Of a DNA stretch of 64,000 nt, positions 30,069 through 49,494 are shown piece after piece. A model generated the notes under the pieces. It worked only from the letters and a program-made list of their open reading frames with translations. It was not told where the DNA came from and ran no database searches. Both the position numbers and the translations under genes were made by a program. This stretch comes from a candidate division TA06 bacterium SM23_40 (GTDB lineage Bacteria; LJUI01; SM1-40). How positions within the stretch are numbered: position 1 is the stretch's first letter; the number at the start of each line of letters is the position of its first letter. The stretch spans positions 1-64,000 of the forward strand of contig LJUI01000001.1 of assembly GCA_001303705.1 (NCBI GenBank), given 5' to 3'.

Positions 30069-31826
30069 TTAGCACTGTGAGTCAATGCCTTGCGTCTGCG
30101 CTACGGCGGCAGGCTCCGTCTCTCGATGCTCCCTGTACCCACCATCTTTTCGAGGGATTTTGATAGTGAAACGAGTACCCCTTCCCTCCTCACTCGCGAC
30201 TGCGACCGTTCCCCCATGGCCCTCGACGATCCGCCTCGAGACCACCAATCCAAGACCCGTGCCCCTCTCCTTCGTCGTGAAGAATGGCTCGAAAATCCGC
30301 TCTCTGACCTCTTCACTCATCCCACACCCCTGGTCGGCAACCTCTATCGTCAGCCACTGGTCATCGATCCCGGTACTGACCTCCACAGTAGTTCCGCCCT
30401 CGCTCGCATCGATTGCATTGTGCAGTAGATTGAAGAAGACTTCCCTCATCTGATTCCCGTCCACCTCGATCGGCGGCAGACCCGAGGCGAACAGGAATTC
30501 AATCGACACGCCATTCTTCTCGCTCTTCTCGCGAACCGCTCGTCCCACGTCATCTAACAGCCCATTTATATCTGTGGCTCTGAAGTCGGGAACTCTCTTT
30601 CGCGCGAAACCCAGAATATCTTCGATAATCCGGTCAATGCGCTCGGCCTCCCTCAGGACGACCTCAGCATATTCTCTCCGTTTGTCATCTTCGGATGACT
30701 TCTGTCGGATCAGCTGCGCGAATCCATTGATCGAGTTCAGAGGATTTCGAATCTCATGCGCGACACAGGCTGCCATCTCCCCGAGGATTGCCAGCTGTTG
30801 TGCCTCTCTCACTCGCTTCTCTAGATATCTGGTGGCGGTGATGTCTTTGAATATGGCGATGATGCCGCACGGGCCGTCACCCTCTTCTTTGACAAGCGAT
30901 GTTGTTATGCCGAGCTGGATCGCCGGTTCGCCTTCTCGCACGATTTCGGCTTCTTTGCCGAAGGATAGGCGATGGCTCGAATGGGCATCGACGAGGATCT
31001 CGGCGAGGGGCGAGGGGAGGCCCACCTGGGTGAACGGCCTACCGAGTACTCGGCCAGGTTCCAGACCCGTAGTCTGCTCAGCGGCCTTATTGAAGTTGGT
31101 GATGCTCCCAGAACCATCGACGATGATGACCCCGCTCGTCATGCTGCTCAGGATGCTCTCGCGGTGCCTGTCCATCGTGCGAGCATCCCGGGTCGCCTTC
31201 TCTCCCACCATAGTGGCGACCTCGACTTGGTGCTGGAGGTCCTTGATGAAACGCTGCTGGCGTTCTTGTTCTTTCCTGCGCAGCCTTGCCTGGCGCGCGA
31301 GCAGGCTACTCGTTGCAGCAATGACAAACAGAAACGGAATACGGATGAGAAATGCGCCTTCAGTCAGCGCCGCCGCTCCGGATGAACTGAAGACCTGCCA
31401 TCCATAGAGGATGCTTGCTACGGCGCCCGTGAGCATCGAACCCCAGGCATGTCTCCCCGCAGCAGCAGCGATGAAGATGACGAGGAAGTAGATGAGATAG
31501 AGGTCGCTCCGGAATCCACTCGAGAAGTAAATGGCGGCCGTCACGAACACGGTATCGGCGAGGAAAATGATGTTCAACATGGCCGCTGAGCGGAACCGTC
31601 TCCTTGGGATTGCAAGGAGGCCGAGATTTGAGACGAAGATTGCGATGGCGAGATAGTATCCTGCCGAGGCAAACCGCAGGCCTCTTGTCCCGAATACCAT
31701 GAGAGCTACAAGCACGAAGACAAGTAGCCATCGGAAGATGAGTATGGACTGCTTCTCATCAAGCGAGGCCAAGCTCGGCGATGACAGATGCAAGAGGAAC
31801 CTCTTTTTTCTCTCTCCCATGTTCAC
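30069..31826 (-). CDS. Membrane-bound PAS sensor histidine kinase
   Basis: A 585-residue kinase with about six N-terminal helices in residues 28-185 (for example FRWLLVFVLVALMVFGT, LYLIYFLVIFIAAAAG, FLIRIPFLFVIAATSSLLA). A coiled coil, a PAS domain (ILSSMTSGVIIVDGSGSIT, then GRPFTQVGLP), HisKA (H box VAHEIRNPLNSI) and HATPase (N box LLHNAIDA, G1 DQGCGMS, FEPFFTT, GTGLGL) follow. The NtrB/AtoS-like catalytic part suggests a partner of the NtrC type, but none is encoded nearby; the local receivers may serve. The GTG start overlaps the ParA-CBM stop (GTGA), so the two are translationally coupled. Confidence 0.92.
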   Translation of the reverse strand: MNMGERKKRFLLHLSSPSLASLDEKQSILIFRWLLVFVLVALMVFGTRGLRFASAGYYLAIAIFVSNLGLLAIPRRRFRSAAMLNIIFLADTVFVTAAIYFSSGFRSDLYLIYFLVIFIAAAAGRHAWGSMLTGAVASILYGWQVFSSSGAAALTEGAFLIRIPFLFVIAATSSLLARQARLRRKEQERQQRFIKDLQHQVEVATMVGEKATRDARTMDRHRESILSSMTSGVIIVDGSGSITNFNKAAEQTTGLEPGRVLGRPFTQVGLPSPLAEILVDAHSSHRLSFGKEAEIVREGEPAIQLGITTSLVKEEGDGPCGIIAIFKDITATRYLEKRVREAQQLAILGEMAACVAHEIRNPLNSINGFAQLIRQKSSEDDKRREYAEVVLREAERIDRIIEDILGFARKRVPDFRATDINGLLDDVGRAVREKSEKNGVSIEFLFASGLPPIEVDGNQMREVFFNLLHNAIDASEGGTTVEVSTGIDDQWLTIEVADQGCGMSEEVRERIFEPFFTTKERGTGLGLVVSRRIVEGHGGTVAVASEEGRGTRFTIKIPRKDGGYREHRETEPAAVAQTQGIDSQC

Positions 31827-32896
31827 TCAACCTCAACGACTGAACTCAATCGTCCGAATCGGTCGGTCTCCACAGCCGGATTGCTGGGATCGGTGACCCA
31901 CCGGCCGTCGATCACGAACCGGTAGTGGTATCTGCCGGGCTTGAGTGGTGCAACTGCCGTCCACACACCATCGTCTCGGCTCGTCATGATAACCGAATTG
32001 GGGACCCACCCTTTGAAGTCACCGACGAGATGAGCCGACTGAGCATCCGGCGCGACGAGCGTGAAGCAGATGCCTTCAGGTACTCGACGCGGGCCCCTTG
32101 AGTCGATCACAGATCCTTCCTGAAGGCTCCTCTCCTCATCTGCGATCACCTCCCTCGCAAGTGAACAGTAGTCTTGAAAGCCCTGACAGTTGCGGTCGTA
32201 CTCGCTGATCGCGCACCCGAAGCTCGCCGCCTCCTTCAATCGCACATTTGCGTGTATCGTTGTCAGGAAGAGCTTTCCTGGGAAGCGCCTTTTCGCCTCA
32301 TCGATGACTTCGCGCGAAAGCTTCATCTTGCTATCGACGCACGTCATGAGCAGGCGCACCTCCAGATCGTGGCCGGAGTTCTCACGGATACTCTCTACCA
32401 TCTCCATGATCTTGCCGACGCCGTGGAGGGCGAAGAAGCTGGGCTCGATCGGCACGATCACCTTCCGGGCTGCCTGGAGAGCGTTGAGCGTCAGCAGTCC
32501 GAGGTTGGTCGGAGCATCTATCACGGTGTAGTCGAAGTCGCGCTCCAGACGCAACAAGGCGACGCGCAGGCGATGTTCTGCGCCTCGCCCGCGCCCCAGC
32601 AGGCGCTCGCACCTGGAGAGACTGGGTGAGGAGGGAGCGAGCCAGAAGTTCTCGCCGCGCTGGACCAGAACCTCATCCAGAGTCGCAGGAACGTCGCCGT
32701 CTCCGGCCATCACCTCATAGACGGTCTTCGTGAGCGCCTCCACATCCACATTCAGTCCCAGAGAAGCATGAGACTGGGGATCCAGATCAACAAGGAGGAC
32801 GCTCTTTCCCTCTAGCGCAAGGCAGGCAGAGAGATTGATGGCCGTCGTCGTCTTACCGCACCCGCCCTTCTGATTCGCTATTGCCACTACGCACAC
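31823..32896 (-). CDS. ParA-type ATPase fused to a glycogen-binding (AMPK-beta/CBM48) domain
   Basis: A 357-residue fusion. Residues 1-255 form a ParA/MinD-type ATPase: deviant Walker A KGGCGKTTT (10-18), Walker A' VLLVDLDPQSHAS (33-45), and DAPTNLGLLTLNAL (128-140). Such ATPases position cargo in the cell. Residues about 275-357 match the AMPK-beta glycogen-binding domain: GDFKGW (Trp297), a YHYRFVIDGRW strand pair (Trp333) and DPSNP. Both tryptophans that stack on glucose in AMPK-beta are kept. No ParB is nearby. The GTG start has GGAGG eight bases upstream, and the gene is coupled to the following kinase. Possibly it places a signalling complex on a polyglucan; that is inference. Confidence 0.88.
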   Translation of the reverse strand: MCVVAIANQKGGCGKTTTAINLSACLALEGKSVLLVDLDPQSHASLGLNVDVEALTKTVYEVMAGDGDVPATLDEVLVQRGENFWLAPSSPSLSRCERLLGRGRGAEHRLRVALLRLERDFDYTVIDAPTNLGLLTLNALQAARKVIVPIEPSFFALHGVGKIMEMVESIRENSGHDLEVRLLMTCVDSKMKLSREVIDEAKRRFPGKLFLTTIHANVRLKEAASFGCAISEYDRNCQGFQDYCSLAREVIADEERSLQEGSVIDSRGPRRVPEGICFTLVAPDAQSAHLVGDFKGWVPNSVIMTSRDDGVWTAVAPLKPGRYHYRFVIDGRWVTDPSNPAVETDRFGRLSSVVEVE

Positions 32897-33054: not shown

Positions 33055-34344
33055 TCATTTTCTGCGTACCGGCGTAATCCCTTGTGCCGCTGACACATCG
33101 ACGACATCCTGGCCTGATCCTTCCTCCTGCCTGGCGATCTCAATCTCCGCTCCGTACAGATGGATGCGCCAGATCGCCCGGCAGATGCCGTCGATCTCTT
33201 CGTCCCGCATGGCAGTGTACAGCGGAATCGAGAGGAGACTCTCCGATAGGAGTTCGGTCACAGGAAGTGGACTTCTCTGTGTTGCCCGCCACCCGGCGTA
33301 CGCATCCTGAAGGTGGACCGGCGGACAGAAGTACTTCCGTGTCGAGACGTTCTCTCGGCCGAGTGCCTCGGCCAGCGTGTCTCGATCGATCCCGAACTCA
33401 CAGGGTTGGATGAAAAGAGAGAAATCTTTGTATGTGGTGCGGCAGTATTCAGGTATGTGCTGAAAACAGATGCCGGGAATCGACGCCAGCGCCCGACGAT
33501 AGCGCAGAGCGATCTCGCCACGTCGGCGAACGGTCCCCTCGATCTGCTCCAGATTCCTCCTCGCAAGAAGGGCCGAGATCTCCTGCATGCGGGCATTCAA
33601 ACCTACGAACCTGCAGTTGTAGTCACCCGGGTTCCCGTAGTCCCTGCCCATCCGCACTCTCCTGGCAACTTCGCCGGATCTGAGCGAGACGAGCCCCCCC
33701 TCTCCCGCCACGAGAGGCTTCGTAGGGCTGAGACTGAAGACTTCGGCATCGCCGAACGTGCCAGCGTGGCGATCTCCGTAGTAACTGCCAAACGCGTGGG
33801 CAGCATCGAATATGAGGCGCAGTCCGCGGTCACGCGCAATATCCTCCAATGCAGTCATGTCCGGAGGATTTCCGAATATGTATGTGGCGATGATCGCGGA
33901 CGTCTCTGGAGTCATTGCCGCCGCCACACAGGCGGGATCGATCGTGTAGGTCTCCGGGTCGCAATCGACGAAGACCGGCTCTAGCCTATTCCAGACGACG
34001 GCATGCGCAGTCGCTGCGAACGTGAAACTCGGGAGTATGACTTCTCCCCGAAGATCAAGAGCCCTCAGTACCAGCATCAGACCCGATGTACAGCACGAAA
34101 CCGCCACAACCTCGTCGACTTCCAGATACTCTGCAGCCAGTCTCTCCAGTGAAGCTACATGCGTGCTGTTCGTCATCAGCCCGCTCGCGAGCACGTCAGC
34201 GATCTCCGCTCCCACGACGTCAAACCCGACGGTGGTAGGGCGGGCCAGTGGTATCTCTTTATCGAAAATCGGCTCTCCCCCGAGAATCGCCGGCATGTCG
34301 TGAATCATCTGCACCCCCTGATCGGTGGCGAGGGGACTGTTCAT
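33055..34344 (-). CDS. DegT/DnrJ/EryC1-family sugar aminotransferase
   Basis: A 429-residue PLP enzyme that transfers an amino group to a keto-sugar nucleotide in the cytoplasm. Aspartate and histidine of the cofactor site appear in LIFDAAHAFGS (Asp180, His183), and the Schiff-base lysine in FSLSPTKPLVAGEGG (Lys209). The ATG overlaps the stop of the dehydratase gene as ATGA. The natural chain is dehydratase (4-keto sugar) followed by this aminotransferase, giving an amino sugar for the polysaccharide. It is the last gene of the locus. Confidence 0.93.
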   Translation of the reverse strand: MNSPLATDQGVQMIHDMPAILGGEPIFDKEIPLARPTTVGFDVVGAEIADVLASGLMTNSTHVASLERLAAEYLEVDEVVAVSCCTSGLMLVLRALDLRGEVILPSFTFAATAHAVVWNRLEPVFVDCDPETYTIDPACVAAAMTPETSAIIATYIFGNPPDMTALEDIARDRGLRLIFDAAHAFGSYYGDRHAGTFGDAEVFSLSPTKPLVAGEGGLVSLRSGEVARRVRMGRDYGNPGDYNCRFVGLNARMQEISALLARRNLEQIEGTVRRRGEIALRYRRALASIPGICFQHIPEYCRTTYKDFSLFIQPCEFGIDRDTLAEALGRENVSTRKYFCPPVHLQDAYAGWRATQRSPLPVTELLSESLLSIPLYTAMRDEEIDGICRAIWRIHLYGAEIEIARQEEGSGQDVVDVSAAQGITPVRRK

Positions 34345-36341
34345 CTACCCTGATAGTTCGCACCGACGTTCGTTCCCGCATAATCTCGGTCTAACGGTCC
34401 GGGCCAACGTCTGAGGACAGACGGCTGCGCTGTACCCGGTCTCGGCAAGTCCGAACGGAGCTCTGCTATGTGCTGCCTCATCTCCCGGCCCACAGGACGA
34501 TACTCGGGAACGAGTGCGGTCAGCCGCTCCATCACCTCGTCTCGGTCCAGGTCGACGACCTGGCGCGCCAATCTCTCCGCCCGCGTGCAGAATCGCCTGC
34601 CATCGAAGGAAGCTGGCACGACACTCAAGATCGGCTCAAACGGAGTCGGCTCGACATGCTCGTTCTCATTCCACAGCTCCTCGCGAAGTTTCTCACCTGG
34701 CCTCAGACCGACATACTCGATCTCGATGTCGCGCCCTGGTTCGAGGCCCGAGAGACGCACGAGGTTTTCGGCCAGATCGAGAATGCGAACAGGCTGACCC
34801 ATCTTCAGCACAAGAATCTCTCCCTGTCCGCCGAGCGTTCCGGCTCGTATCACGAGCCGCACGGCCTCAGCGATCGTCATGAGATAGCGCACCGCATCGG
34901 GATGAGTCACGGTCACGGGCCCGCCGAGGCGGATTTGACGTTTGAACAGAGGGATGACGCTTCCTTCGCTCCCCAGAACATTCCCGAACCGGACAGCCGT
35001 GAATGAAGTGCTGCTCTGCTGAGCCATCGACTGTATGATGAGTTCAGCAACGCGTTTGGTCGCGCCCATGATATTAAGAGGGTTGACCGCCTTATCAGTC
35101 GATATGAGCACAAAACGCTCCGTTCCCCATCGGTCTGCTGCTTTGGCGACATTCAGAGTGCCGAGCACGTTGTTCTTCACTCCTTCTCCGACACACAGCT
35201 CCATCAACGGAACGTGCTTGTGGGCCGCAGCATGGAAGAGTATCTGGGGTCGATACTGCTTCATGACGCCACTCACTCGTGGCTCGTCCCGAACATCTCC
35301 GATCGCCGGCACGACCCGGGTGTCCCGCCCCATCGATCTGAGTGTGAGCGTCAGGAAGTACATGTTATTCTCGTTATGGTCGAACAGAATGAGCCGATCT
35401 GGGTCGAACTGAAGAAGCTGCCGGCACAGCTCCTGTCCGATCGAGCCTGCAGCACCTGTCACCATGATCGACTTCCCCCGGTAGGCATCGCCTATTGATT
35501 CATCTTCATCCTCCATCGCCTCGCTCCGGTCTAGCAACTCCTCCTCTCTCACATCGCGAATCTTGCTCAGCTGAACATCCCCACAGATGAGATCACGTAT
35601 GCCCGGCACGGTCTTGACCAGCACACCACTACGCCCCGATCTCTTACAGAGATCGACAACGCCCCGTTGCAACTCCCTGGAAGCAGAGGCAACTGTCACT
35701 ATCACCTCGTCGACGTCGTGCTGCGCCACGAGCTGCGGGATCTCTTGCGTGGTTCCCAAAATGGGGATGCCATGGATCCGCAGACCTATCTTGTTGATGT
35801 CATCGTCGACGAATCCGACCGGTACATACCGAACATCAGGGCGCCGAAGCATTTCGCGCACGACGAGTTCTCCTGTATCGCCAGCGCCGACGAACAGCGC
35901 GCGGGTCCTCCCTGTCGGCTGGTCTATTTTTGTGTCGCCTCTGCCGGTGATCTTCTTCCGCAACACCCTCCACGCGAGGCGGCTTCCGCCCACGATGAAC
36001 AAGCAGAGGACTCCATCTGTCACGATGATGGTCCAGGGGATCATCGACCCTGCCGTCGCCAACAGGACGACGCCAGATAGGACCGAGCTAACCGCGACAG
36101 CCCGCGAAAGACCTATGAGTTCCCCGATGCTTGCATAATCGAGCAGGCCTTCATAGAGTCTCGACCGATAGAAGGCCAGGAGCCTGAAGACTGCCGTTAG
36201 AAGACAGACTGGAAAGAGCACTCTCAGGTCAATCTCGCCCACTTGTGCGTCGTAGTGCAGAACGAAAGCGGCCAGCGTGGAGAAGGTAACGAGGAAGAAA
36301 TCCACAACAATGAGCCGAATCCTGCGCGATGAGAGGGACAT
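34341..36341 (-). CDS. WbpM/PglF/FlaA1-type nucleotide-sugar 4,6-dehydratase
   Basis: A 666-residue inner-membrane enzyme. Four N-terminal helices (about 8-115) precede a Rossmann domain (ALFVGAGDTGELVVREML) and a catalytic short-chain-dehydrogenase domain (SIMVTGAAGSIGQELCRQL, about 288-595). The catalytic Tyr of ordinary SDRs is replaced by Met in NIMGATKRVAEL, as in the WbpM group with its Ser-Met-Lys triad; the SerThr is in LISTDKAVNP. It converts UDP-GlcNAc-type sugars to 4-keto-6-deoxy forms. GGAGG precedes the ATG. The next gene is an aminotransferase. An Arg/Pro-rich C-terminal tail is unusual but short. Confidence 0.95.
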   Translation of the reverse strand: MSLSSRRIRLIVVDFFLVTFSTLAAFVLHYDAQVGEIDLRVLFPVCLLTAVFRLLAFYRSRLYEGLLDYASIGELIGLSRAVAVSSVLSGVVLLATAGSMIPWTIIVTDGVLCLFIVGGSRLAWRVLRKKITGRGDTKIDQPTGRTRALFVGAGDTGELVVREMLRRPDVRYVPVGFVDDDINKIGLRIHGIPILGTTQEIPQLVAQHDVDEVIVTVASASRELQRGVVDLCKRSGRSGVLVKTVPGIRDLICGDVQLSKIRDVREEELLDRSEAMEDEDESIGDAYRGKSIMVTGAAGSIGQELCRQLLQFDPDRLILFDHNENNMYFLTLTLRSMGRDTRVVPAIGDVRDEPRVSGVMKQYRPQILFHAAAHKHVPLMELCVGEGVKNNVLGTLNVAKAADRWGTERFVLISTDKAVNPLNIMGATKRVAELIIQSMAQQSSTSFTAVRFGNVLGSEGSVIPLFKRQIRLGGPVTVTHPDAVRYLMTIAEAVRLVIRAGTLGGQGEILVLKMGQPVRILDLAENLVRLSGLEPGRDIEIEYVGLRPGEKLREELWNENEHVEPTPFEPILSVVPASFDGRRFCTRAERLARQVVDLDRDEVMERLTALVPEYRPVGREMRQHIAELRSDLPRPGTAQPSVLRRWPGPLDRDYAGTNVGANYQGR

Positions 36342-36353
36342 TGGGCCTCCGTA

Positions 36354-36533
36354 TCAGAAGAGTGCGTAGATGAATGGTGCTACGGCAGATCCCTCAGCCA
36401 ACACGATGAGCAGGCTCATCACGATGAGCAACATCAACATCGGAGCGAGCCACCATTTCCGCCTCACCCGCATGAATTGCCAGAGCTCGACGAAGATCGC
36501 AGCGCGTGATTGCAGTCGACTGAACGCATTCAT
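36354..36533 (-). CDS. DUF5989 single-pass membrane peptide
   Basis: A 59-residue protein beginning MNAFSRLQSRAAIFVELW and continuing with an amphipathic Arg/Trp segment (RVRRKWWLAP). One helix (MLMLLIVMSLLIVLAEG) and the family end GSAVAPFIYALF follow. The GSAVAPFIY-LF tail is the mark of DUF5989, whose members usually sit in exopolysaccharide gene clusters; the function is not known. The ATG is preceded by GAGGAGCGAGG. It lies between the WecA-like transferase (77 bp before) and the dehydratase (12 bp after), which suggests a role with membrane-bound enzymes. Confidence 0.9.
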   Translation of the reverse strand: MNAFSRLQSRAAIFVELWQFMRVRRKWWLAPMLMLLIVMSLLIVLAEGSAVAPFIYALF

Positions 36534-36609
36534 TGCCTCGCTCCTCGTCTATTGGTCCTGTGAAACAATCCCGCACTATCTCGTTTCTGTCTGGGCTCTG
36601 CGTACCACC

Positions 36610-37566
36610 CTACGATGGTCCCCTCCCGATCGATCCCACGATCAACAACCCACATGCTACGCAGGCGACCCCGATCGCGTAGCAGGCAAGGACAGCTCCC
36701 CGGTGGCCTAAGCCACGCTCTACCATTCTGTTATAGATGTGCCCGAGATCACCCGCAAGTATCGATTGCCGCTGCCGGCGCCGACGGACTATGCTCCACG
36801 CCGTGTCGACGATCGGTAGGCCGAGAATGACGAGCGGCGCTACAAACCAACGCGGATCGTGGCGGTCCGTCACGACGCCGATCATGAGAACGGCGAGCAA
36901 GAAGCCGATCAGATTCGATCCAGAGTCTCCCAGGAATATCCTCGCAGGGTGGAAGTTATGAAGGAGGAATCCAAGACAGCTTCCCAAGAGAACAAGCGCG
37001 AGTCCACTCACGATAGGAACTCCCGCCGCCATACCGACTGCGACGAAACCAAGCGCAGCGATAGCGGCAACGCCAGTCGCAAGCCCATCGAGCCCATCGA
37101 TGAGGTTCATCGCGTTCGAGCTTCCCAGGACGTAAACCGGTACGATGATGACAGCCAGCGGAGCCGGGAGGAAGTCCGGCCTGATGCCAACGAGAACGAG
37201 ACAGCCAGCTGCCGCCAGCTGCCCGATTGCTTTAACCAGTGGGGTAGTGCCCTTCGTGTCGTCCCACAGGCCGACGCACGTCACGATGCCTGCACCGGTC
37301 AATACCCCTATCATCTCCCGCGACCAAGAGATCGCCCCGCTGCCTGCTGCCATCCCCCCGAGCACCGCCACGAGCAGGCCGCCGGCCAACGCCAAGCCTC
37401 CTGATCGAGGGATCGGCCTGGTATGGATCTTTCCCTGTCCCGGGCTGTCGACCGCACCGATTCTCCGCCCCACTCGACCGGCCACGGGGGTGAGAAGAGC
37501 TGTGCCTGCCACCGCCACCCAGAATGGAAGACTGCTGAGGACTGCGCGCAGGCTATCGAGAATCAC
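36610..37566 (-). CDS. WecA/MraY-like polyprenyl-phosphate sugar-1-phosphate transferase
   Basis: An integral membrane enzyme of about 318 residues with around ten helices that transfers a sugar-1-phosphate to undecaprenyl phosphate and so starts the lipid-linked glycan. Motifs in order: HTRPIPRSGGLAL, LWDDTKG (catalytic Asp pair), NAMNLIDGLDGLATG, FLGDSGSN and the terminal HIYNRMVERGLGHR loop. The GTG at 37566 is the chosen start, with GGAGG nine bases upstream and the previous stop 4 bp before; a longer frame to 37650 would overlap the preceding gene by 80 bp. It is the likely initiating transferase for the locus. Confidence 0.93.
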   Translation of the reverse strand: MILDSLRAVLSSLPFWVAVAGTALLTPVAGRVGRRIGAVDSPGQGKIHTRPIPRSGGLALAGGLLVAVLGGMAAGSGAISWSREMIGVLTGAGIVTCVGLWDDTKGTTPLVKAIGQLAAAGCLVLVGIRPDFLPAPLAVIIVPVYVLGSSNAMNLIDGLDGLATGVAAIAALGFVAVGMAAGVPIVSGLALVLLGSCLGFLLHNFHPARIFLGDSGSNLIGFLLAVLMIGVVTDRHDPRWFVAPLVILGLPIVDTAWSIVRRRRQRQSILAGDLGHIYNRMVERGLGHRGAVLACYAIGVACVACGLLIVGSIGRGPS

Positions 37567-37570
37567 CAGG

Positions 37571-38857
37571 TCACACCTCCAATCTTGCCAGTTCCCTCCG
37601 GCGGCTGAACCTGCGTCCGGAGCTCCGTCCTTCACGATCGTTGACCACATCGTCCAGCAAACTCAAGTAGCGCCCGGCCACAATCTGGCGTGAGCAGTTG
37701 ACAAGAGCAAAGCGCCGTCCGTTCCTCCCGAGACACTCCCTCTGTGCCTGGTTCCCTGTTAACGCAAGCACAGCACGGCAAAGCGATTCAGGATCGTCCG
37801 GCTCGGCTGCCGTACCAGCACCAGCCTTCTCCACCAGCATGCGGGCCTGGCCCTTTCCAGCGATCACGATCGGACGCCCGCATGCCATGTAGTCGAACAG
37901 CTTGGCTGGCAGATTTCCCAGATTGAGTTCGCACCGCCCCGTCTGGACAAGACATATATCAGCCGAAGAGATGAGCGATGCCACCCTTCGCCTGGACTGC
38001 AGTGGGAGAATGACAACATTCCTGAGCCGCCATTCCGCCCTGGCGCGCTCCAACTTGCCTCGATCGCATCCATCGCCGACAAGAACGAACCCGATGTCGG
38101 GAGTCCCCTTCAGAAGAGCGGCTGCCTTTAGCACCGTAATCAGGTTCTGCTGGAGGCCGAAGGTCCCGGCGTACAGCACGATATGCTTCCCATTCCGGAA
38201 TAGCTCCTTGAGCAGAGGATCACGCTCGCGGCGCGGTCGAAATAGGAAGGTATCAGTCCCATTGATGATGATTTTGACGTTTCCCCTCGACACGCCGTGA
38301 TTGAGGACGTGGTCCACGAAACCCGGTGAGACGACAACTACGCGCGAAGCATGCCGGTAGCAGATACGCTCTGCTAACCGTGCCAGCTTAATGATGCTAC
38401 GGTTGCGGATGATGCCAAACGAAATGGCCGCGTCGGGCCAAAGATCACGCACCTCGAAGACAAATGGCCTTCTCCTCGACCGCGCCACCGCAAGTCCAAC
38501 AAGCCCTACCTCAAGCGGCGGCGAGCTCGCAACCACTACGTCGCACTCACCAGCGAAGAGGCTCGCCACACCGGCCGAGACCATGAACGACAGATGACCC
38601 AGAACACGACGGACGAACGAGCCGGCGCTTGCGGGAATCGCAAAGACCCGGATGACCCGCACGCCATCGACTCGCTCGACACGCCACAAGCGATGTCGAT
38701 AGCCCGGACGGATCACCCCGCTCGGGTAGTTGGGCATCCCGGTGATCACGGTGACGCTCAGCCCACTGCGCACCCATTCCCGTGACACTTCGTGTATCTT
38801 AGTCGCCGAAGGTTCGACTTCCGGCGGGAAGTACTGGTTGACGATGAGCACGCGCAC
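37571..38857 (-). CDS. WbuB-like GT4 glycosyltransferase
   Basis: A 428-residue GT-B enzyme of the WbuB/WcaI group, which often adds a 6-deoxy-amino sugar to a lipid-linked acceptor. Family landmarks: VNQYFPPEVEPSA near the N-terminus, FEVRDLWPDAA, IINGTDTFLF, YAGTFGLQQN, and the donor-site region LPAKLFDYMACGRP. The GTG start is preceded by AAGGGAAG and overlaps the asparagine-synthase gene by 59 bp. The WecA-like transferase follows after 4 bp, so the two are likely consecutive steps. Confidence 0.9.
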   Translation of the reverse strand: MRVLIVNQYFPPEVEPSATKIHEVSREWVRSGLSVTVITGMPNYPSGVIRPGYRHRLWRVERVDGVRVIRVFAIPASAGSFVRRVLGHLSFMVSAGVASLFAGECDVVVASSPPLEVGLVGLAVARSRRRPFVFEVRDLWPDAAISFGIIRNRSIIKLARLAERICYRHASRVVVVSPGFVDHVLNHGVSRGNVKIIINGTDTFLFRPRRERDPLLKELFRNGKHIVLYAGTFGLQQNLITVLKAAALLKGTPDIGFVLVGDGCDRGKLERARAEWRLRNVVILPLQSRRRVASLISSADICLVQTGRCELNLGNLPAKLFDYMACGRPIVIAGKGQARMLVEKAGAGTAAEPDDPESLCRAVLALTGNQAQRECLGRNGRRFALVNCSRQIVAGRYLSLLDDVVNDREGRSSGRRFSRRRELARLEV

Positions 38858-40772
38858 GAGCTTCCCTCTTCTCTTTCTGGCTCAGGCGGCCCTCCCCGTC
38901 CAGATAGAGGCGGTTCCAGAGCTCCAGGATCAGCAGTGCCCAGACACGTACTCCAGATCCGCGTTTCCCGTCGAGACATTCGAACAGCAGCCGCTCGATT
39001 CGATCTCCCCTGAAATATGGACGGCGAAGTGTGCTGGGATCGAGCAGAACTTCCTGTACATAGACACGCAACTCTCTACGCAACCAGCGCTCAACCGGAA
39101 GTACGAACCCCTGCTTGCGCCTGGACAACGTGTCGCGCGGGAGAAGGTCACGCACCGCCTCCCTCATAAGATACTTCGGTCTCAGATGGCGCATCTTCAC
39201 CCACGAAGGGATTCCGAGGGCATATTCGACGAGGCGATGGTCACACAGAGGTACACGCGTTTCGAGAGATACGGCCATACTCATTCGATCGAAGTATGTC
39301 AGGAGGTTATCTGTCAGGTAGGCCCTCACATCGGTATAAGCGAGTTGATTCACCGGGTCGCTCCCATCATCCTGTCTTAGATAGGGATCGAGGACCGATG
39401 CGCTGTCCTCACCACCGAGAGCAGCACAGAGGTCTGGCGAGTACAGCTCTCTTTTCTCGTCCTCGGTGAACAGAGATATCAGGCCGAAGTAGCGCCGCTC
39501 TCGACTCATGTCCGCAACCCGGTCGAATTCGCGAAATCGATATATCAGCCGATTGAAGTGCGGGTCGTGCTCCATCACATCAAGGATTCTGGAAACAGTG
39601 TGGCGACGCAGTCGACGGGGCAACTCGGCATACCACGCAATAAACCTCCATCCGATATATCTCGGATAGCCGCCAAACAACTCGTCCCCTCCGATACCGT
39701 TCAATACGACACTGACATAACGCTTCGCCATCTCTGAAATAAGGTACGCGGCGATCGCCGTCGGATTGCCGAACGGCTCGTCGAAGAAACGGACCATGCG
39801 AGGTAGGTACGACACAATGTTCGGGCTCACGAGAAGTTCATGATGCTCAGTGCCGTACATACCGGCGATGTGGCGGGCGTATGCCCGTTCGTCACAGTGC
39901 TGATCCTCCTCCTCCGCAAAGCCCACCGTGAACGTCCTGAGCCGTTCGGCTGAGTAGGTGGCCGCCAAGGCGGTAACGGTACTCGAGTCGGCCCCACCGC
40001 TGAGAAGAACACCCACAGGTGAATCGCTCCGCAGCTCCCGCCGCACCGCATCTTCCATGAGGTGCCGGATCGCCTCGCGATGCTGTGTGGGCGTCCTGCC
40101 GTCGGGATTGTGGGGTTGCACCTCCCAGTAGCATCGCGTCGCCACCACCCCCCCACGATAGGTGAGGAGGTGCCCGGGACGGAGCTTGCGAATGTTCTTC
40201 ATCATAGTGCGGGGCGCAGGAACGCAGAGATAGCTCAGGTAGTCATGGAGGGCTCGTGGATCGACCTCAACTCCAAGCGATTCGTATTCGAGCAGCGCCT
40301 TGATCTCAGAACCGAACAGCAACCTATTGCCGAGAATCGCGTAGTGGAGCGGCTTGATACCGATCCTGTCTCTGGCAAGCATGAGGACACGTTGCCGCCC
40401 GTCCCAGAGAGCAAAGGCAAACATCCCCTCGATCCACTGGAGGCAACCTTCTCCCTTTTCCTCATACAGATGGAGAATTGTCTCTGTATCGCTCGCCGTG
40501 CGGAAGGTGTGTCCCTTGGATAGCAGCTGCCGTCTCAGCTCGGGCGAGTTGTAGATCTCTCCGTCGAAAACGATCCAGATCGTCCTCTCCTCGTTGTGCA
40601 TTGGCTGACGCCCGGTCACCGAATCGATGACGGCCAGTCGGGTCGAACCCAGGCCAACCCCTTCATCGCAGAACATGCCCCACCCGTCTGGACCGCGGTG
40701 TCTCAGTGTCGCGCACATACGCACTAGTAGATCGCGTTCACTGAACCCCGCCATACCGCAGATGCCGCACAT
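38799..40772 (-). CDS. asnB: Asparagine synthase-type glutamine amidotransferase
   Basis: A 657-residue cytoplasmic enzyme with an N-terminal Ntn glutaminase domain and a C-terminal ATP-pyrophosphatase domain. Cys2 in MCGICGMAG is the nucleophile, and the synthase domain holds the PP-loop SGGADSSTVTAL. Other landmarks: TRLAVID, HNEERTIWIVFDGEIYN and GIGGDELFGGYPRY. Within polysaccharide loci such enzymes are thought to amidate uronic acids or other carboxylated sugars rather than make free asparagine; both remain possible. ATG preceded by GGGAG; it overlaps the preceding GT4 gene by 35 bp. Confidence 0.94.
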   Translation of the reverse strand: MCGICGMAGFSERDLLVRMCATLRHRGPDGWGMFCDEGVGLGSTRLAVIDSVTGRQPMHNEERTIWIVFDGEIYNSPELRRQLLSKGHTFRTASDTETILHLYEEKGEGCLQWIEGMFAFALWDGRQRVLMLARDRIGIKPLHYAILGNRLLFGSEIKALLEYESLGVEVDPRALHDYLSYLCVPAPRTMMKNIRKLRPGHLLTYRGGVVATRCYWEVQPHNPDGRTPTQHREAIRHLMEDAVRRELRSDSPVGVLLSGGADSSTVTALAATYSAERLRTFTVGFAEEEDQHCDERAYARHIAGMYGTEHHELLVSPNIVSYLPRMVRFFDEPFGNPTAIAAYLISEMAKRYVSVVLNGIGGDELFGGYPRYIGWRFIAWYAELPRRLRRHTVSRILDVMEHDPHFNRLIYRFREFDRVADMSRERRYFGLISLFTEDEKRELYSPDLCAALGGEDSASVLDPYLRQDDGSDPVNQLAYTDVRAYLTDNLLTYFDRMSMAVSLETRVPLCDHRLVEYALGIPSWVKMRHLRPKYLMREAVRDLLPRDTLSRRKQGFVLPVERWLRRELRVYVQEVLLDPSTLRRPYFRGDRIERLLFECLDGKRGSGVRVWALLILELWNRLYLDGEGRLSQKEKREARARAHRQPVLPAGSRTFGD

Positions 40773-41949
40773 TTGGGTCTCCCAGTCTCTCTTCCACGTC
40801 GGTGCAATCGCTCAGCACCGACCACAATTTCGTTGTAGTTGATGCCCAGTTGAAATCGTGCTCGACTCTGCGCCTGCCTGAAGAGCCGAGCCTCTGCGCC
40901 AGGGCCCCATCTCGCAAGATAGTGACCAGCGCTCTCGCGATGCCATCGACATCGCCTGGCTCGACCAATAGACCAGTGACACCTGCGACTATTGCCTCGC
41001 CCACGCCCCCCGAGTCTCCTCCCACTACTGGCTTGCCGCAGGCATTCGCTTCGAGAAAGACGAGTCCAAACCCTTCAACGTCCTTTTCCGTCTCATGTGG
41101 AATCATGACCAAGACATCGGCCAGATTGTACATCTGTACAAGTCGACCCTCATCCACGGAACCAGCAAACCTGATCCATCCATCCACCCCCAGGCCGCGC
41201 GCAAGCTCCTCCAACTCACGCTTACGCGGCCCTTCGCCAACGACAAGATAGACGGCCTCCCGCACCTGCCTGATGACCTCTGGCAGCGCCTGAATGACGT
41301 CCGCATGTCCTTTGTGATAGTCAAGCCTCGCCACCGTGAGGATCACGCGTTTCCCCTCCAGACCGTACGCCGCAACCAGATCCGCCGACGGCGGCTGCAT
41401 GCAGAATCTCTTCTCGTCAACGCCATTCGGGACGGCTGTAGCCCTGGTAGGATCCGCTCCCGCCAGCACCGCCAGAGCGCGCGTGTAGTCACTGACGGCC
41501 ACGACAGCTTCCGCACTCTTCAGCACCCTTCGCCGGAGCCAACCGAGTCGCCTCCTCACCGCATCCTTCAGCCTCTCCCCCGCATTCTGCCGATCGAGCA
41601 GTTCCGACCCGTGAGCGGCAACAACATATGGCACGGAGACAAGCCGTGAGACGAGCATGGCAATGGCACCACATGGCAACCAGACAGCGTTGAAAATGAC
41701 GTCTGCGCGCCCCCTCAGTGCGAACCAGAGTGTAACCAAGAACATCGCGGCTTCCCTGACCAGGCCGATCCTCGGCACATACACCAATCGAAATGCAGGG
41801 TCTCTCCCCATACGGCCGCCGCCGCATTTCGGGACGACGACGATTAGATCCTCGGCCCGCGCCGCGAGTTGTCGAGCAACCTCGTACGTGTAGACCTGGA
41901 CGCCGCCTCGCGACGGCGGATACCCTGAACTGAGGAAGAGGACTCTCAC
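40738..41949 (-). CDS. GT4 glycosyltransferase
   Basis: A 403-residue GT-B enzyme. N-terminal SSGYPPSRGGVQVYTYEVARQLA is the usual acceptor-side glycine loop; a nucleotide-sugar site follows with VPNGVDEKRF, LTVARLDYHKGHADVI, VGEGPRKRELE, and EGFGLVFLEANACGKPVVGGDSGG, the E-x7-E motif of retaining GT4 enzymes. It resembles the PimB-like enzyme at 50745-51917. The GTG start has ACGGAGAG upstream, and the gene follows the phosphodiesterase after 17 bp. Donor and acceptor cannot be read from the sequence. Confidence 0.93.
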   Translation of the reverse strand: MRVLFLSSGYPPSRGGVQVYTYEVARQLAARAEDLIVVVPKCGGGRMGRDPAFRLVYVPRIGLVREAAMFLVTLWFALRGRADVIFNAVWLPCGAIAMLVSRLVSVPYVVAAHGSELLDRQNAGERLKDAVRRRLGWLRRRVLKSAEAVVAVSDYTRALAVLAGADPTRATAVPNGVDEKRFCMQPPSADLVAAYGLEGKRVILTVARLDYHKGHADVIQALPEVIRQVREAVYLVVGEGPRKRELEELARGLGVDGWIRFAGSVDEGRLVQMYNLADVLVMIPHETEKDVEGFGLVFLEANACGKPVVGGDSGGVGEAIVAGVTGLLVEPGDVDGIARALVTILRDGALAQRLGSSGRRRVEHDFNWASTTTKLWSVLSDCTDVEERLGDPNVRHLRYGGVQ

Positions 41950-41966
41950 TATGACTCTCCGTTACG

Positions 41967-43505
41967 CTACTCGATGTAACCCAAGCCCCGGAGTCTCTCG
42001 CCCACAATACTCTCCGCGACCAGTCTCTCCTCGATCTCAGCCGGCTCGGGTCCCGGGTGCGCACTCTCTTCATATGAGTCGACGTAGCGGATCGGGTGGC
42101 GACGTAGAAACTCAGGCTCGATGGTCTCTGACAACACTCTCCCATCCATGTCCCTCCCCACCGCCAGGTTCATCAGGACGAGCATCGTCGGAGTCAGGTC
42201 GAGGACGCTCACCACTCCAATGTCAGCTCCCCTGTTCACTGCAGGCCCCCGCATGATCAGAATCCCCGTCGGATCATGAGTGCCGGAGATCTCCGCCTTC
42301 TCTATCAATAGCTCCTGAAGCCGGACCTCTCCGCCCAGCATGCGTATCGACGGGTTGTCGCCCTGGTCGACGATCTGTCTCGGCCGAATGCCTATCGACG
42401 CATCATCTGATCCCAGATCGACCTCGAGGAATGACTCCCTGCTGTCCCTGTATTCGATGCCACGCAACATCTCGACGAGTTCACTCCGCTCAGCTCGGCT
42501 CCCGGCCCTCAACCTCAAATGGACCTTGTCGAGGATGATGCTGACATAGACCCTGTCGTCGATACCGAGCCGTTGCAGTAAGAGGCCAACGTTGAGCTGA
42601 CGCTTCATCCAGCAGTCTTTGCTGGCTCGAAATCCATGATCCGAGGCAACTATGACATTAGTCTCCCTTCCGACGCTTTGCATCAGACGCCCGACCATCC
42701 GGTCCGCAGCTCGGTAGCATCGCGCCACGACATCTCCGTACCGTCGCTTCTCCCGAGGCGAGACATCTCTAAAGAGATGGGGCTCGTAGTACTTCCAGTA
42801 GTGGTGCGAAATCCCATCCAGGCCCGCGTAGATGCTGGCTGAGAAGTCCAATCTCTGTTTTCTCATCAGCCGCGAGTAGATATCCCCGGCGATCAACGCC
42901 TCCAGAAGTTGCTTCCGGTAGTGCAGTTCGACATTGCTCGGCTTGAGCAGCCGTTGGTAGAGCGCGACGAGCGCACATCGTGTGAGCGTGGAGACCCTCA
43001 TCCCATGAATGAGCCCACGCAAGCCGACGTCCAGATAGTGCATCAACGCCGTGTTCGTGCTCGGGAGACCCGCCATCTCGATCTCTTTGATGAACCGCAG
43101 ATGTGCTGGAACAGTCTCCGGAGATCGCGCGGTCCAACCCGGCACGACAAATGCGAGGCCCCGCTCGGGCGGCCAGGTGAAGAGATACTTGTACAGTCCG
43201 ATCTTCGCCTCTGGTCTCTGTTGACGAACGATGTCCCATATCCGCTTTGCCTTGATGGCTGATTGTGTTGCGAAGAAGTCCTTGATTCCGTGCTTCTCAG
43301 GAACCTTACCGGTGGCAATGCTTGTCCAGACGAGTGGAGAAGCCAGAGGCTCGAATGAGAGCAGATCTCCACGGACCCCTTCCGCTGCCAGGCGAGCAAG
43401 CGTGGGCAGCTGTCCTTTCTCCATCAGCGGCTTCATCACACGCCAGTCGGCGCCGTCAAGCCCAATGAGAAGCATCCTCGGGACTTTGCTCCCCGGAGCT
43501 GTCAT
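41967..43505 (-). CDS. Alkaline-phosphatase-superfamily phosphodiesterase
   Basis: A protein of about 512 residues of the nucleotide pyrophosphatase/phosphodiesterase type. Metal-binding and catalytic residues are visible: Asp in LLIGLDGADW, nucleophile Thr in WTSIATGKVPEKHG, Asp/His in YAGLDGISHHYW, and DH in VIVASDHGF. No signal peptide or membrane helix is clear, so it seems cytoplasmic or loosely attached. It may trim or transfer phosphate-linked groups in the glycan. The start is placed at the ATG at 43505 behind AGGAGG; the frame opens at 43583 and overlaps the ferredoxin gene either way. ATG 43475 is also possible. Confidence 0.85.
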   Translation of the reverse strand: MTAPGSKVPRMLLIGLDGADWRVMKPLMEKGQLPTLARLAAEGVRGDLLSFEPLASPLVWTSIATGKVPEKHGIKDFFATQSAIKAKRIWDIVRQQRPEAKIGLYKYLFTWPPERGLAFVVPGWTARSPETVPAHLRFIKEIEMAGLPSTNTALMHYLDVGLRGLIHGMRVSTLTRCALVALYQRLLKPSNVELHYRKQLLEALIAGDIYSRLMRKQRLDFSASIYAGLDGISHHYWKYYEPHLFRDVSPREKRRYGDVVARCYRAADRMVGRLMQSVGRETNVIVASDHGFRASKDCWMKRQLNVGLLLQRLGIDDRVYVSIILDKVHLRLRAGSRAERSELVEMLRGIEYRDSRESFLEVDLGSDDASIGIRPRQIVDQGDNPSIRMLGGEVRLQELLIEKAEISGTHDPTGILIMRGPAVNRGADIGVVSVLDLTPTMLVLMNLAVGRDMDGRVLSETIEPEFLRRHPIRYVDSYEESAHPGPEPAEIEERLVAESIVGERLRGLGYIE

Positions 43506-43788
43506 CCTCCTCCTCATTTTCGAAGCTGAACAACAGGCTGATGCTGCCGGAGGGGCAGCGGGCTTTGCAGGCACCGCAGCCAATGCATGCCTCCGTATCG
43601 AAGACGTCAGGATGGGAGAAGACTCCCTCGACGTCCAGAACCATCACGAGCGCACCCTCGGGGCACCCTTCGGCGCAGCAACCGCATCCCTGGCATGTCG
43701 TCAGATCGACGTTGATCTGCCCGACCAGAACATCAATTCGCAGGACGCTGTCGCTCTCGGTGGCTCCGACCTCAGCTGGCAATTTCAT
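43456..43788 (-). CDS. 2x[4Fe-4S] ferredoxin
   Basis: About 110 residues with two [4Fe-4S] motifs: CQGCGCCAEGCP and CIGCGACKARCP. A variable stretch and a DVLVGQINVDLTTC strand come before the first motif, and a Glu/Asp/Ser-rich tail follows. It should carry electrons in the cytoplasm. The start at 43788 lies directly after GGAGG in the end of the aldo/keto-reductase-like gene, so translation is probably coupled. The frame to 43905 is Arg-rich and unlikely to be translated. Its neighbour, an oxidoreductase-like TIM barrel, is the probable partner; such ferredoxins are rare in polysaccharide loci. Confidence 0.9.
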   Translation of the reverse strand: MKLPAEVGATESDSVLRIDVLVGQINVDLTTCQGCGCCAEGCPEGALVMVLDVEGVFSHPDVFDTEACIGCGACKARCPSGSISLLFSFENEEEDDSSGEQSPEDASHWA

Positions 43789-44710
43789 ACCTCCGGTCAA
43801 AGTCGTCCCCCAGTATCGATCGTGCGGCACCGAATGTCTTCTCTGCCTCCTCGATAGTGGCCACGCCGATCGCCGCCGACTCGACGCCCACCTCCTCGAA
43901 CACATATCTCAGCGCCCCTTCTGGCTCGATGACGCCTCCGGCCAGGACCTTCTTGGCTATGATTAGCGTGGATCCACGATCGCCCGCCACGTCAAGACAT
44001 GCGTCCACCGAAGGATTCATCATGAACCCAAGCGGGTTGAATGGTGCCATTATCACGGGAACGCTGAGCTCCATTGCCGTCAGGTTCCGCCACATCACTC
44101 CCAGGTTGTGAGTGGCAAGCCCAGCGACGGCGCCGGTGGCCCTCACCTTCTTGATGAACGTCTCCACCACAGAGCGATGTCTGATCGCGCATGCCATGTC
44201 AGCGAGCATTCCGTGTAAGAGAATGATCCTGGGATGGACCTGGGAGACAAGACCTATCTCGGTCTCGAGCACCTCTTCGACGAGCGGCAGGACGTTCCCG
44301 CTCACGCCGGCCGAGACGAGACGCGGCATCGATCGGACGATGAACTTGATCTTCTCCCGAGTCGCCGTCCCTGCCATCTCCCCTGTCTGCCTCGCCATCG
44401 CCTCGTACACATCGGGCAGAACGGCCACCGTGTCAGGAAGGCCGCCGTATCGAGCCTGGGCCATCTTCAGTGCCTCCACCTGAGCCTGGCGCGCATAGCA
44501 GTGTGCCGTCGTGACGCCCAGCTCGAGGCAGTGCCCGATCACCTCGAGAATTGCTTCAGGGCGGGAAAAGCGACTCCGATATTCCCTCCTCAGTGCTTCG
44601 CTCTTGTACGAGACCCCCTGGAAGGGATTGGACCCGACCATCAGCCGCGGAAGAAGAAGTCTCTCGCTATCCGCCGCGAGCGTAGCACTCACTTCTTGGC
44701 CAGATGTCAT
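43772..44710 (-). CDS. Aldo/keto-reductase-like TIM-barrel protein
   Basis: About 312 residues with alternating helices and strands of a TIM barrel. Pieces recall aldo/keto reductases: LMVGSNPFQGVSY at the start, ELGVTTAHCYARQ, GLATHNLGVMWRNL and SAAIGVATIEEAEKTFGAAR at the end. The classical catalytic Tyr/Lys pair is not obvious, so the reaction is uncertain. The start is the ATG at 44710 behind GGGGAAAG; a GTG at 44737 is possible. It overlaps the Gfo/Idh/MocA gene before it and the ferredoxin after it, hinting at a redox step that uses NAD(P) or ferredoxin on a sugar. Confidence 0.6.
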   Translation of the reverse strand: MTSGQEVSATLAADSERLLLPRLMVGSNPFQGVSYKSEALRREYRSRFSRPEAILEVIGHCLELGVTTAHCYARQAQVEALKMAQARYGGLPDTVAVLPDVYEAMARQTGEMAGTATREKIKFIVRSMPRLVSAGVSGNVLPLVEEVLETEIGLVSQVHPRIILLHGMLADMACAIRHRSVVETFIKKVRATGAVAGLATHNLGVMWRNLTAMELSVPVIMAPFNPLGFMMNPSVDACLDVAGDRGSTLIIAKKVLAGGVIEPEGALRYVFEEVGVESAAIGVATIEEAEKTFGAARSILGDDFDRRYEIAS

Positions 44711-45773
44711 CGTTCTTTCCCCATTCCCGTTCGTCACGATCCAAAGGAAACGAGACGATGGCAGGTTGAGAAGCGGTAGCCTTTAGAGCAGCAACAAATT
44801 CATCTACGCGATATCCGTCCTCCCAGCTGGGCGAACCAGATCTCCCTGATGTGATCGCCCCGGCAAATGCCTCCATCTCCCGGGAAAGCGGCTTTCCTGT
44901 GAAATCGAAGCCTGTCCGGCCCCAGATCTCTGGACCGTAGAGCACAGACTCCCCTCGCCCGAAATCATCGGTCGGTTCTTGGAGGCGCAGGCACAACTGA
45001 TCGGTTTCGACCAACATCGAGCCTTTAGTCCCAGTCATAGTGAAATTGAAGTGCGGCTTATCGATCCCGTGGTGACTCCACCCGAGATCCACAATCCCGT
45101 GGGCCCCGCCGCGAAATCGACAGACTGCGGACGCGAAGTCGACTAACCCCTCCGCGTTCCCTGCTGTCCCCAGAGCAGCAAGCTCTTCGATCTCTCCTCC
45201 GTACCACAACACTATGTCGATGACGTGGGGCGCGAACACCCCGAAGAGCCCTCCGCGATCGATCAGATCCTTGCGCTTCGAGATGTCGACTCGCTCCGCC
45301 ACCTCTCCGTCATGGGCGACTGCCATGAGGTAGCGCACGTCCCCGATCACTCCACTGTCGAGCAACTGCTTCGCCTTGGCATAGACAGGATGAAATCTCA
45401 TGTCGTAGCCCACCTGATGAACTGCGCCGGTGTGCCGCGCTGCTTCGAGCATTCGCTTCGATTCGGGCAGGGTGGTACCGAGCGGCTTCTCACACAACAC
45501 GTGCTTTCCCGCACGTACGGCCTCGATAGCGACCTCGCAGTGGGCATGTGGCGGCGTACAGACCATCACTGCGTCAACGTCTTCCTGCCTCATTGCCCTG
45601 GTCAGCGAGCGATAGCAGGGGACTCCGAACTGCCGGGCAGCAATCCTCCCAACCATTCTGCTCTGTTCCACGAGGCAGACGAGCTCGTAACAGGGAAGCG
45701 CATTGGCCACCACAGCTCGTGAGACGCCCATCTCACCAACTCCGACGATCGCCAGTCGTATGGCCCTACTCAC
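44667..45773 (-). CDS. Gfo/Idh/MocA-family oxidoreductase
   Basis: A 368-residue NAD(P)-dependent sugar oxidoreductase. The Rossmann motif is AIVGVGEMGVSRA, and the family's catalytic-lysine segment appears as VLCEKPLGTT. The C-terminal half is the usual open sheet (for example GGAHGIVDLGWSHHG). It probably oxidises or reduces a nucleotide sugar for the polysaccharide, possibly in line with the DegT aminotransferase. It follows the GT4 gene at 45835 after 61 bp and overlaps the next gene by about 44 bp. Confidence 0.92.
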   Translation of the reverse strand: MSRAIRLAIVGVGEMGVSRAVVANALPCYELVCLVEQSRMVGRIAARQFGVPCYRSLTRAMRQEDVDAVMVCTPPHAHCEVAIEAVRAGKHVLCEKPLGTTLPESKRMLEAARHTGAVHQVGYDMRFHPVYAKAKQLLDSGVIGDVRYLMAVAHDGEVAERVDISKRKDLIDRGGLFGVFAPHVIDIVLWYGGEIEELAALGTAGNAEGLVDFASAVCRFRGGAHGIVDLGWSHHGIDKPHFNFTMTGTKGSMLVETDQLCLRLQEPTDDFGRGESVLYGPEIWGRTGFDFTGKPLSREMEAFAGAITSGRSGSPSWEDGYRVDEFVAALKATASQPAIVSFPLDRDEREWGKNDDIWPRSECYARGG

Positions 45774-45834
45774 CGACGTCTCCTTTCATCACCGGCTGAA
45801 GCGTCCTCCGGCTCTCATGCCGCTACCTCTTTAT

Positions 45835-46971
45835 CTATCGGCAGAGGCACGCCTCCTCCAGAATCCCCCATACTTCTTCTCCCACTTTCGTCCATTCTCG
45901 TGCGGGACTGACAGTCTCGAGTGCGCCATCGGACAGTGTTCGGGCGTATTCAGGATGTTCGATCAGATACCTCATGGCGCGGGCAAGATCTGGTACATTG
46001 CCGGCCTCCACCAGCAGTCCATTCCTCCCGTCGGAGACTATCTCGGGAATACCTCCTACGCGTGTGGCGATGACAGGGAGGCCAAAAGACATCGCCTCCA
46101 GCAGGACGATTCCGTAGCCCTCCCACAGGGACGGCAGCACGAGGATGTCAGATCGTGCATACCACTCCGCAAGCACCGCCTCCTCGTCAATCCTCCCAAC
46201 GAAGTGGACCCTCGTCCTGAGCCCGAGCCGGCCGACCAACTGCCGGAGGCTCTCGAAGTATTCCGGATCCTCATCTGTGTCCCCAACGATTCCCAATCTA
46301 ACGTCGTGATCGCCCAGCAGCGCCATCGCTTTGAGGAGATCCTCAAGCCCCTTGATCGGTTCGCATCGACCGACGAACAAGATGTTCGTCCGTCCTCTCG
46401 TCACGAGCTGCGGAATCGCCTGGGTTTGTGCAGAACGCCGGGGGGGGCTCAGTCCCGGGTGGACCACGCGAATCTTGCTGCGGTCGATCCCGAACTGCAG
46501 CACACCCTCAGCCGTGCTGCGGCTGTTCGCGATGATCACATCCACCTGCCGGAAAAAGTGCCTCACTGCGATCTGGTCGAGGACCCTGGCCAGACTAGAC
46601 CGGAGAATCGAGTGATAGAAGAGATGACTCTGGACGATTCCCACGATGCGCACGGGGCGAAGTAGCTTCAGCACCCAATTGGCGATAACCACCCTCGGGT
46701 GATGATGGAAATCCTCCAGCAACACGATCGGCCGTCCCTGGATACGCAGCAGTCTCCTCAGCAGCCACAGGTTCGTGAGGAAACTCGAGAGAACGACGCC
46801 ACCCCGCCTCACCCAGACAGGAAGATCGGAAAGTACTATCAGTCGTACGTCGCCCCACCCTCGTCCCGCGACGTACCGGTACACCTCGCTCAGGTATCGC
46901 TCGCCTCCTGTCCTCAAGGTCGGCCGGGAGGCGATAGCCACAAAGATGGTCTCACTCACCATCCCCGGGAC
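45835..46971 (-). CDS. GT4 glycosyltransferase
   Basis: About 378 residues with GT-B architecture. N-terminal TLRTGGERYLSEVYRYV, then IIANSRSTAEGVLQFG, VVHPGLSPPRR, LFVGRCEPIKGLEDLLKAM and the donor motif EGYGIVLLEAMSFGLPVIATRVGG with the paired glutamates. The ATG at 46971 behind AGGAAAGGG is preferred; the frame opens at a GTG at 47055 that would overlap the preceding stop (GTGA) but would add 28 residues unlike the family. Sugar specificity unknown. Confidence 0.92.
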   Translation of the reverse strand, partial: VPGMVSETIFVAIASRPTLRTGGERYLSEVYRYVAGRGWGDVRLIVLSDLPVWVRRGGVVLSSFLTNLWLLRRLLRIQGRPIVLLEDFHHHPRVVIANWVLKLLRPVRIVGIVQSHLFYHSILRSSLARVLDQIAVRHFFRQVDVIIANSRSTAEGVLQFGIDRSKIRVVHPGLSPPRRSAQTQAIPQLVTRGRTNILFVGRCEPIKGLEDLLKAMALLGDHDVRLGIVGDTDEDPEYFESLRQLVGRLGLRTRVHFVGRIDEEAVLAEWYARSDILVLPSLWEGYGIVLLEAMSFGLPVIATRVGGIPEIVSDGRNGLLVEAGNVPDLARAMRYLIEHPEYARTLSDGALETVSPAREWTKVGEEVWGILEEACLCR

Positions 46972-47051
46972 CATCAGCCCTTTCCTACCCTGATCTATCC
47001 TCCGAGAGGTATCTCCCCCGATGCCTTCAGATAGATAATCTCCCACCGAAT

Positions 47052-49489: not shown

Positions 49490-49494
49490 ATCAT

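Follow-up and report, generated by a model that had tools for sequence, protein, structure and literature searches.

ParA-class ATPases are known to position DNA, carboxysomes, flagella and chemotaxis arrays. One ParA-like protein, BcsQ, serves cellulose secretion and carries no glycogen-binding domain (GBD). The partners of ParA/MinD ATPases show extreme diversity and work through an N-terminus that carries positive charge (PMC10241942, PMC7993993, PMC12462528). A literature search limited to open-licence papers returned nothing relevant on a ParA with a glycogen- or carbohydrate-binding domain. Such a protein is encoded in the window, the whole 64,000-nucleotide stretch that was analysed, where the following features of the fusion gene were delineated:

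31823..32896, minus strand: parA-GBD fusion gene, recognized from the list of open reading frames and from full-length homologues in many phyla
32135..32890, minus strand: ParA/Soj-type ATPase domain, residues 3-254, recognized by AAA_31, PDB ParA 8ray and Foldseek
32846..32872, minus strand: deviant Walker A motif QKGGCGKTT, with K10 and K15 invariant in 62 fusions
31826..32074, minus strand: AMPK-beta-type GBD (CBM48 clan), residues 275-357, recognized by Pfam, profile, model and Z-score
32006..32008, minus strand: Trp297, predicted glucose-stacking residue, invariant (62/62)
31898..31900, minus strand: Trp333, predicted glucose-stacking residue, invariant (62/62)

The fusion protein is encoded by an uninterrupted open reading frame of 357 amino acids, which starts with GTG at 32896 and ends with TGA at 31823-31825. 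An initial sequence-only reading had placed this frame correctly, leaving the strand unstated, and the motifs and residue numbers it quoted (KGGCGKTTT, VLLVDLDPQ, W297 in GDFKGW and W333 in DGRW) agree with the gene; its description of a complete ParA ATPase joined to an AMPK-beta-like domain is borne out by Pfam matches to AAA_31, AMPK1_CBM and CBM_48, all above the curated cut-offs. Structure prediction of the full-length fusion yielded a mean pLDDT of 88.6, with values below 50 confined to a short linker (residues 261-266). A frameshift or assembly error merging two genes, which the same reading had named as a possible flaw, is vanishingly improbable: no point in its favour was found, and it is refuted by 62 distinct full-length fusions (the window protein and 61 others, hereafter the conservation set) from independent assemblies. 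Because the 61 other distinct sequences show the same architecture, which is kept at full length in many genomes, the fusion is genuine.

The N-terminal part has the hallmarks of a ParA ATPase. Pfam AAA_31 matches residues 3-179 (1e-44), and the nearest solved chain is ParA 8ray (E 3.4e-48), with 1wcv/2bek also among the best PDB matches. Superposition of the full model on Soj/ParA structures with Foldseek gave rmsd values of 1.8-1.9 A (E 9.3e-28 at 1.9 A for Soj). The ParA core is intact: K10 and K15 (the signature lysine and Walker A) as well as D37, D39 and D127 (the Walker A'/B region) are each present in 62/62 fusions. The basic residue of the NVRL motif, R219, an indirect pointer to DNA binding, is R or K in 59/62. 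The fusion protein does not end in a membrane helix of the MinD type. By motifs and fold, the fusion is assigned to the ParA/MinD ATPases with a deviant Walker A motif, for which binding to DNA or membrane and an ATP-dependent dimer are predicted.

The C-terminal part is most similar to the GBD of AMPK-beta. AMPK1_CBM (PF16561) matches residues 285-357 (9.4e-12; 45.4 bits vs a cut-off of 26.8) and CBM_48 matches residues 272-337 (1.4e-10; 41.7 bits vs 22.4), and the closest solved chains are AMPK-beta GBDs. A profile built from 19 domains of this type retrieved 1z0n (3.9e-16), followed by starch phosphatases, a pullulanase and GlgB. When predicted in isolation (pLDDT 95), the domain adopts the fold of an AMPK-beta GBD, in line with the E-set/CBM48 fold proposed from the sequence: it is matched best by AMPK-beta carbohydrate-binding modules, the top two by Z-score being the cyclodextrin complexes 4yee and 4yef (Z 13.8, rmsd 1.3-1.4 A). 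Both glucose-stacking tryptophans, W297 and W333, are kept in 62/62 fusions, as the sequence-only reading had stated for the window protein, and so are F294 and Y325; of the positions of the Lys and Asn site residues, 326 is R or K in 61/62 and 351 is N or D in 61/62, with Ser at 351 found in the window protein alone and Asn or Asp in the 61 others. The positions that contact sugar are those we take to do so from the known AMPK-beta structure.

Alternatively, the C-terminal domain could be an E-set without affinity for sugar, serving contacts between proteins or the geometry of the dimer. Among the CBM48-type E-sets of GH13 enzymes, several are non-binding, and the presence of glycogen synthase is not tightly tied to that of the fusion. 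However, the positions in contact with sugar in AMPK-beta are those that never vary, while the remainder of the domain drifts, with 32-45% identity to the window domain, and we consider a non-binding domain improbable. The glucan site is intact, and the domain assignment and the prediction of a polyglucan-binding ParA are well supported by the kept ligand-site tryptophans and by the position of the family outside the Soj clade (see below).

The fusion is an old, conserved family found across many little-studied bacterial phyla. Full-length fusions were identified in genomes titled Omnitrophota, Rokuibacteriota, Myxococcales, Deltaproteobacteria, Gammaproteobacteria/Thiogranum, Gemmatimonadales and Sedimentisphaerales, as well as in several further phyla. 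The sequence-only reading had suggested a search in FCB genomes, a scope that turned out too narrow for a family that also includes members from Omnitrophota, Rokuibacteriota, Myxococcota, Gammaproteobacteria and Planctomycetota. In one phylum, 60/80 genomes carry the fusion (counted from the match table) and in another, 7/8 do, one copy being cut by a contig end; the phylum of the window genome is represented by that genome alone among the genomes searched.

In a tree of 72 rows comprising GBD-ParA and Soj proteins, the Soj rows form a clade supported at 100/98 with no GBD row inside, and the GBD label needs 2 changes. Two KGGCGKT proteins without a GBD are nested among the GBD rows, for which losses are the simplest reading; these ParAs (L039:8001-8900 and L003:1501-2463) are followed downstream by the partner peptide described below. 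Judged from the tree, the fusion arose once or a few times and was then retained across phyla, and the GBD-ParA family is distinct in sequence from chromosomal Soj; an ordinary Soj identity was rejected on the same topology.

A standard ParA for chromosome or plasmid partition, with a spare domain acquired, would account for an ATPase nearest to Soj/ParA in sequence and fold. Yet the fusion falls outside the Soj clade, it has no adjoining ParB gene, and the one thing its partners have in common is an N-terminal peptide, extended by an SHxFLS specific to this system. Furthermore, the genomes that carry the fusion also encode other, Soj-like ParAs, so that the fusion is not the sole ParA of its host genomes. 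Given these points, a partition ParA is very improbable. The window fusion gene lies between a DegT gene and a histidine kinase gene, and no parB was seen there, in agreement with the initial reading.

In most relatives, the next downstream gene starts with a basic stretch followed by (R/K)xLxxISHxFLS, and in L005 this partner overlaps the fusion gene by 4 bp. The strict peptide pattern occurs within 400 nt downstream in 34/59 fusion loci, compared to 0.25 expected from shuffled sequences and 0/94 Soj loci, and looser variants add further fusion loci. In several lineages the peptide begins with LGRGL, like the ParB N-termini (LGKGLDALI) encoded beside Soj in L009-L011. The partner peptide resembles the ParB and PomX peptides that trigger ParA ATPases and may, by analogy, do likewise. 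The partner bodies vary: many contain a degenerate MinD-like domain, and a different domain is present in L033, L005 and L006/L042. The only feature common to the partners is the basic N-terminal peptide.

Other genes recur at these loci. The Omnitrophota loci have, directly upstream of the fusion, a gene for a single-pass membrane protein, unlike the partner elsewhere, with a carbohydrate-binding-like ectodomain (weak Pfam matches) and a looser LAxxYL near the N-terminus (L031:7423-7998, L034:7309-7887, L037:7256-7993 and L047:7339-8001). A conserved third gene (L197:11698-12261 and L032:9940-10737), fused into the partner in L033 (9160-9786), has no Pfam match (e.g., L197:11698-12261) and its sequence, inspected by eye, looks like that of a restriction-endonuclease-like fold (GxIDLLAVD...IIDFE in L033). 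Finally, L036, L038, L039, L040, L041 and L198, which belong to Myxococcota, Gammaproteobacteria and Nitrospirota, have upstream of the ParA gene a MerR-type gene whose product is conserved in its C-terminal part (TGDVVLVFxGxxAFDALTGQQW).

In the window, the fusion gene is followed by a different kind of gene:

30069..31826, minus strand: membrane histidine kinase (PilS-like 6TM, PAS, HisKA, HATPase_c), recognized by Pfam; possible partner by position

The GTGA overlap with this kinase gene, pointed out in the sequence-only reading, is present at 31823-31826; it requires that the kinase start with GTG; an ATG follows two codons later. Although basic, the N-terminus of the kinase, MNMGERKKRFLLHLSS, has a peptide-matrix score of -0.1, compared to 14.8-40.3 for known partners and a random 95% level of 1.0, and the kinase was therefore rejected as a peptide-bearing partner. 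Because of this score, it is by position only that the overlapping kinase is the obvious candidate for the window partner. Thus, the coupling to a histidine kinase proposed in that reading holds for the window but not for the family, most members of which have another, peptide-bearing partner. Two-component genes were found near the fusion in 6/39 loci and in 0/52 Soj controls, which were not taxon-matched, and are not the immediate partner. Another window gene (24963-26777) reached a peptide score of 10.2, but the matching segment, which is without the core of the motif, comes after the first membrane helix, and was judged to be due to chance. Searches with body and peptide profiles found no peptide partner beside the fusion or elsewhere in the window genome (89.8% complete), the genome matches being unrelated MinD-like proteins and one match antisense to a dehydrogenase gene. 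Downstream of the fusion and kinase genes, a TonB receptor, an ABC-type substrate-binding protein, a histidine kinase with a HAMP domain and a hybrid of receiver and kinase are encoded in a row (22918-30085, minus strand).

Since the fusion protein contains no membrane or export feature, its GBD is expected to face the cytosol, where the glucan would most probably be glycogen, the usual alpha-glucan there. The window genome encodes a GlgA-type synthase (E 6e-86) and no other AMPK1_CBM proteins. GlgA was found in 30/34 fusion genomes, mostly from two phyla, vs 53/80 genomes not counted as fusion-positive, and glycogen synthase was accordingly rejected as a marker of fusion genomes; a strong GlgA match is absent from several fusion lineages (Planctomycetes, Rokubacteria and Myxococcota MAGs). 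No linkage to glycogen genes was seen in the neighbourhoods read, except in one genome, in which a small standalone GBD protein is followed by a glycosyltransferase gene, MRILMLGWEFPPYISGGLGTACRGL (L192:11850-12500), ~1.6 kb downstream of one of the two fusion copies.

We propose that the fusion is part of a positioning system of the ParA type, docked on a cytosolic alpha-glucan, with the glucan as cargo handle or sensor, a model to which we assign slightly less than an even chance. The Ser at 351 of the window protein, the poor discrimination by GlgA, the scarce linkage to glycogen genes and the failure to find a peptide partner in the window genome count against it. An ATP-bound dimer would sit on the nucleoid; we infer nucleoid binding because the fusion shares the basic NVRL residue with Soj and lacks a MinD-type membrane helix. 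The N-terminal peptide of the partner would then stimulate the ATPase to hydrolyse its ATP and let go, in the manner of ParB, MinE and PomX, a switch proposed on account of the published parallel with the charged N-termini of ParA/MinD partners. The GBD could tether the ATPase to a particle of glucan; alternatively, glucan occupancy could alter the ATPase cycle in the way that glycogen acts on AMPK, making the glucan cargo in the former case and signal in the latter. The variable partner body (a membrane protein, a degenerate MinD-like domain, etc.) may provide a second anchor, and the outcome would be glucan distributed throughout the cell or recruited to a complex at the membrane.

The main rival to docking on a glucan comes from the genes on the other side of the fusion:

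33055..63978, minus strand: surface-polysaccharide cluster, upstream of the fusion gene across a 158-nt gap

This cluster includes genes for DegT, a CapD-like protein, a WecA-like glycosyltransferase, asparagine synthase, several GT4 enzymes, a Wzx flippase and a Wzy/O-antigen ligase. A similar linkage was observed in a second phylum, where 8 loci from two families carry the fusion, partner, Wzy and WecA genes in one order and on one strand, most of them with a GT4 gene between; this order occurs in 0/52 Soj control loci, which, however, were not taxon-matched. The link to surface polysaccharides suggested in the sequence-only reading hence receives some support. The fusion might accordingly be a spatial or regulatory ATPase for Wzx/Wzy-type, WecA-initiated surface-polysaccharide assembly, its GBD reading a cytosolic sugar signal (the glycogen level, maltodextrins or a lipid-linked precursor) rather than holding glycogen as cargo. 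The position of the window gene after a Wzx/Wzy-type cluster and the conserved gene order in the second phylum are consistent with such a role, as are weak structural matches to BcsQ with its part in cellulose secretion. Conversely, the linkage is restricted to two phyla, with most other loci having no such genes nearby, the window cluster is parted from the fusion gene by the 158-nt gap, and an exported polymer made outside the cytosol would be beyond the reach of the GBD. On balance, we regard a role in surface-polysaccharide assembly as rather unlikely.

Returning to docking on a cytosolic glucan, a far-reaching form of it would be a bacterial system for glycogen positioning, partition or sensing, in which a ParA holds the glucan through a fused AMPK-beta-type domain and is switched off by unrelated partners through a shared peptide; we put this forward tentatively, as a minority expectation. 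If true, glycogen stores would gain ParA-type inheritance, as carboxysomes have, and bacteria would possess a parallel to glycogen sensing by AMPK. The model bears on how cells position and pass on polysaccharide stores or machines. With a conserved ParA, an intact glucan site and a candidate activating peptide, the model is testable with few point mutants, and the partner peptide offers a route to assign cargo to orphan ParAs.

No description of this architecture was found in the open-licence papers searched, and it is apparently new; it falls within the ParA/MinD positioning class and does not constitute a separate kind. The fusion shares with Soj/ParA the fold, the deviant Walker A and Walker B motifs and the basic NVRL residue, and its best PDB matches (8ray and 1wcv/2bek) come from that group, but it differs in forming a separate clade, in the Cys of KGGCGKT, in the C-terminal GBD and in having no ParB alongside. 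Its GBD is similar to that of AMPK-beta in fold and in both stacking tryptophans, but is joined to a ParA ATPase, whereas that of AMPK is joined to the scaffold of a kinase complex, and the window protein has Ser at 351. BcsQ is likewise a ParA/MinD-class protein tied to polysaccharide production and matches the fusion weakly in Pfam (1.1e-06); however, it is linked to cellulose synthase and not to Wzx/Wzy, and the BcsQ score here is far below those of the ParA/Soj models. Finally, the combination, in most relatives, of a ParA-class ATPase with adjacent, unrelated partners sharing a basic N-terminal peptide appears, at the sequence level, to be similar to the McdA-McdB, PomZ-PomX and ParC-type systems, for which the cited papers describe no sugar-binding domain on the ATPase and from which the fusion loci differ also in the sequence of the peptide.
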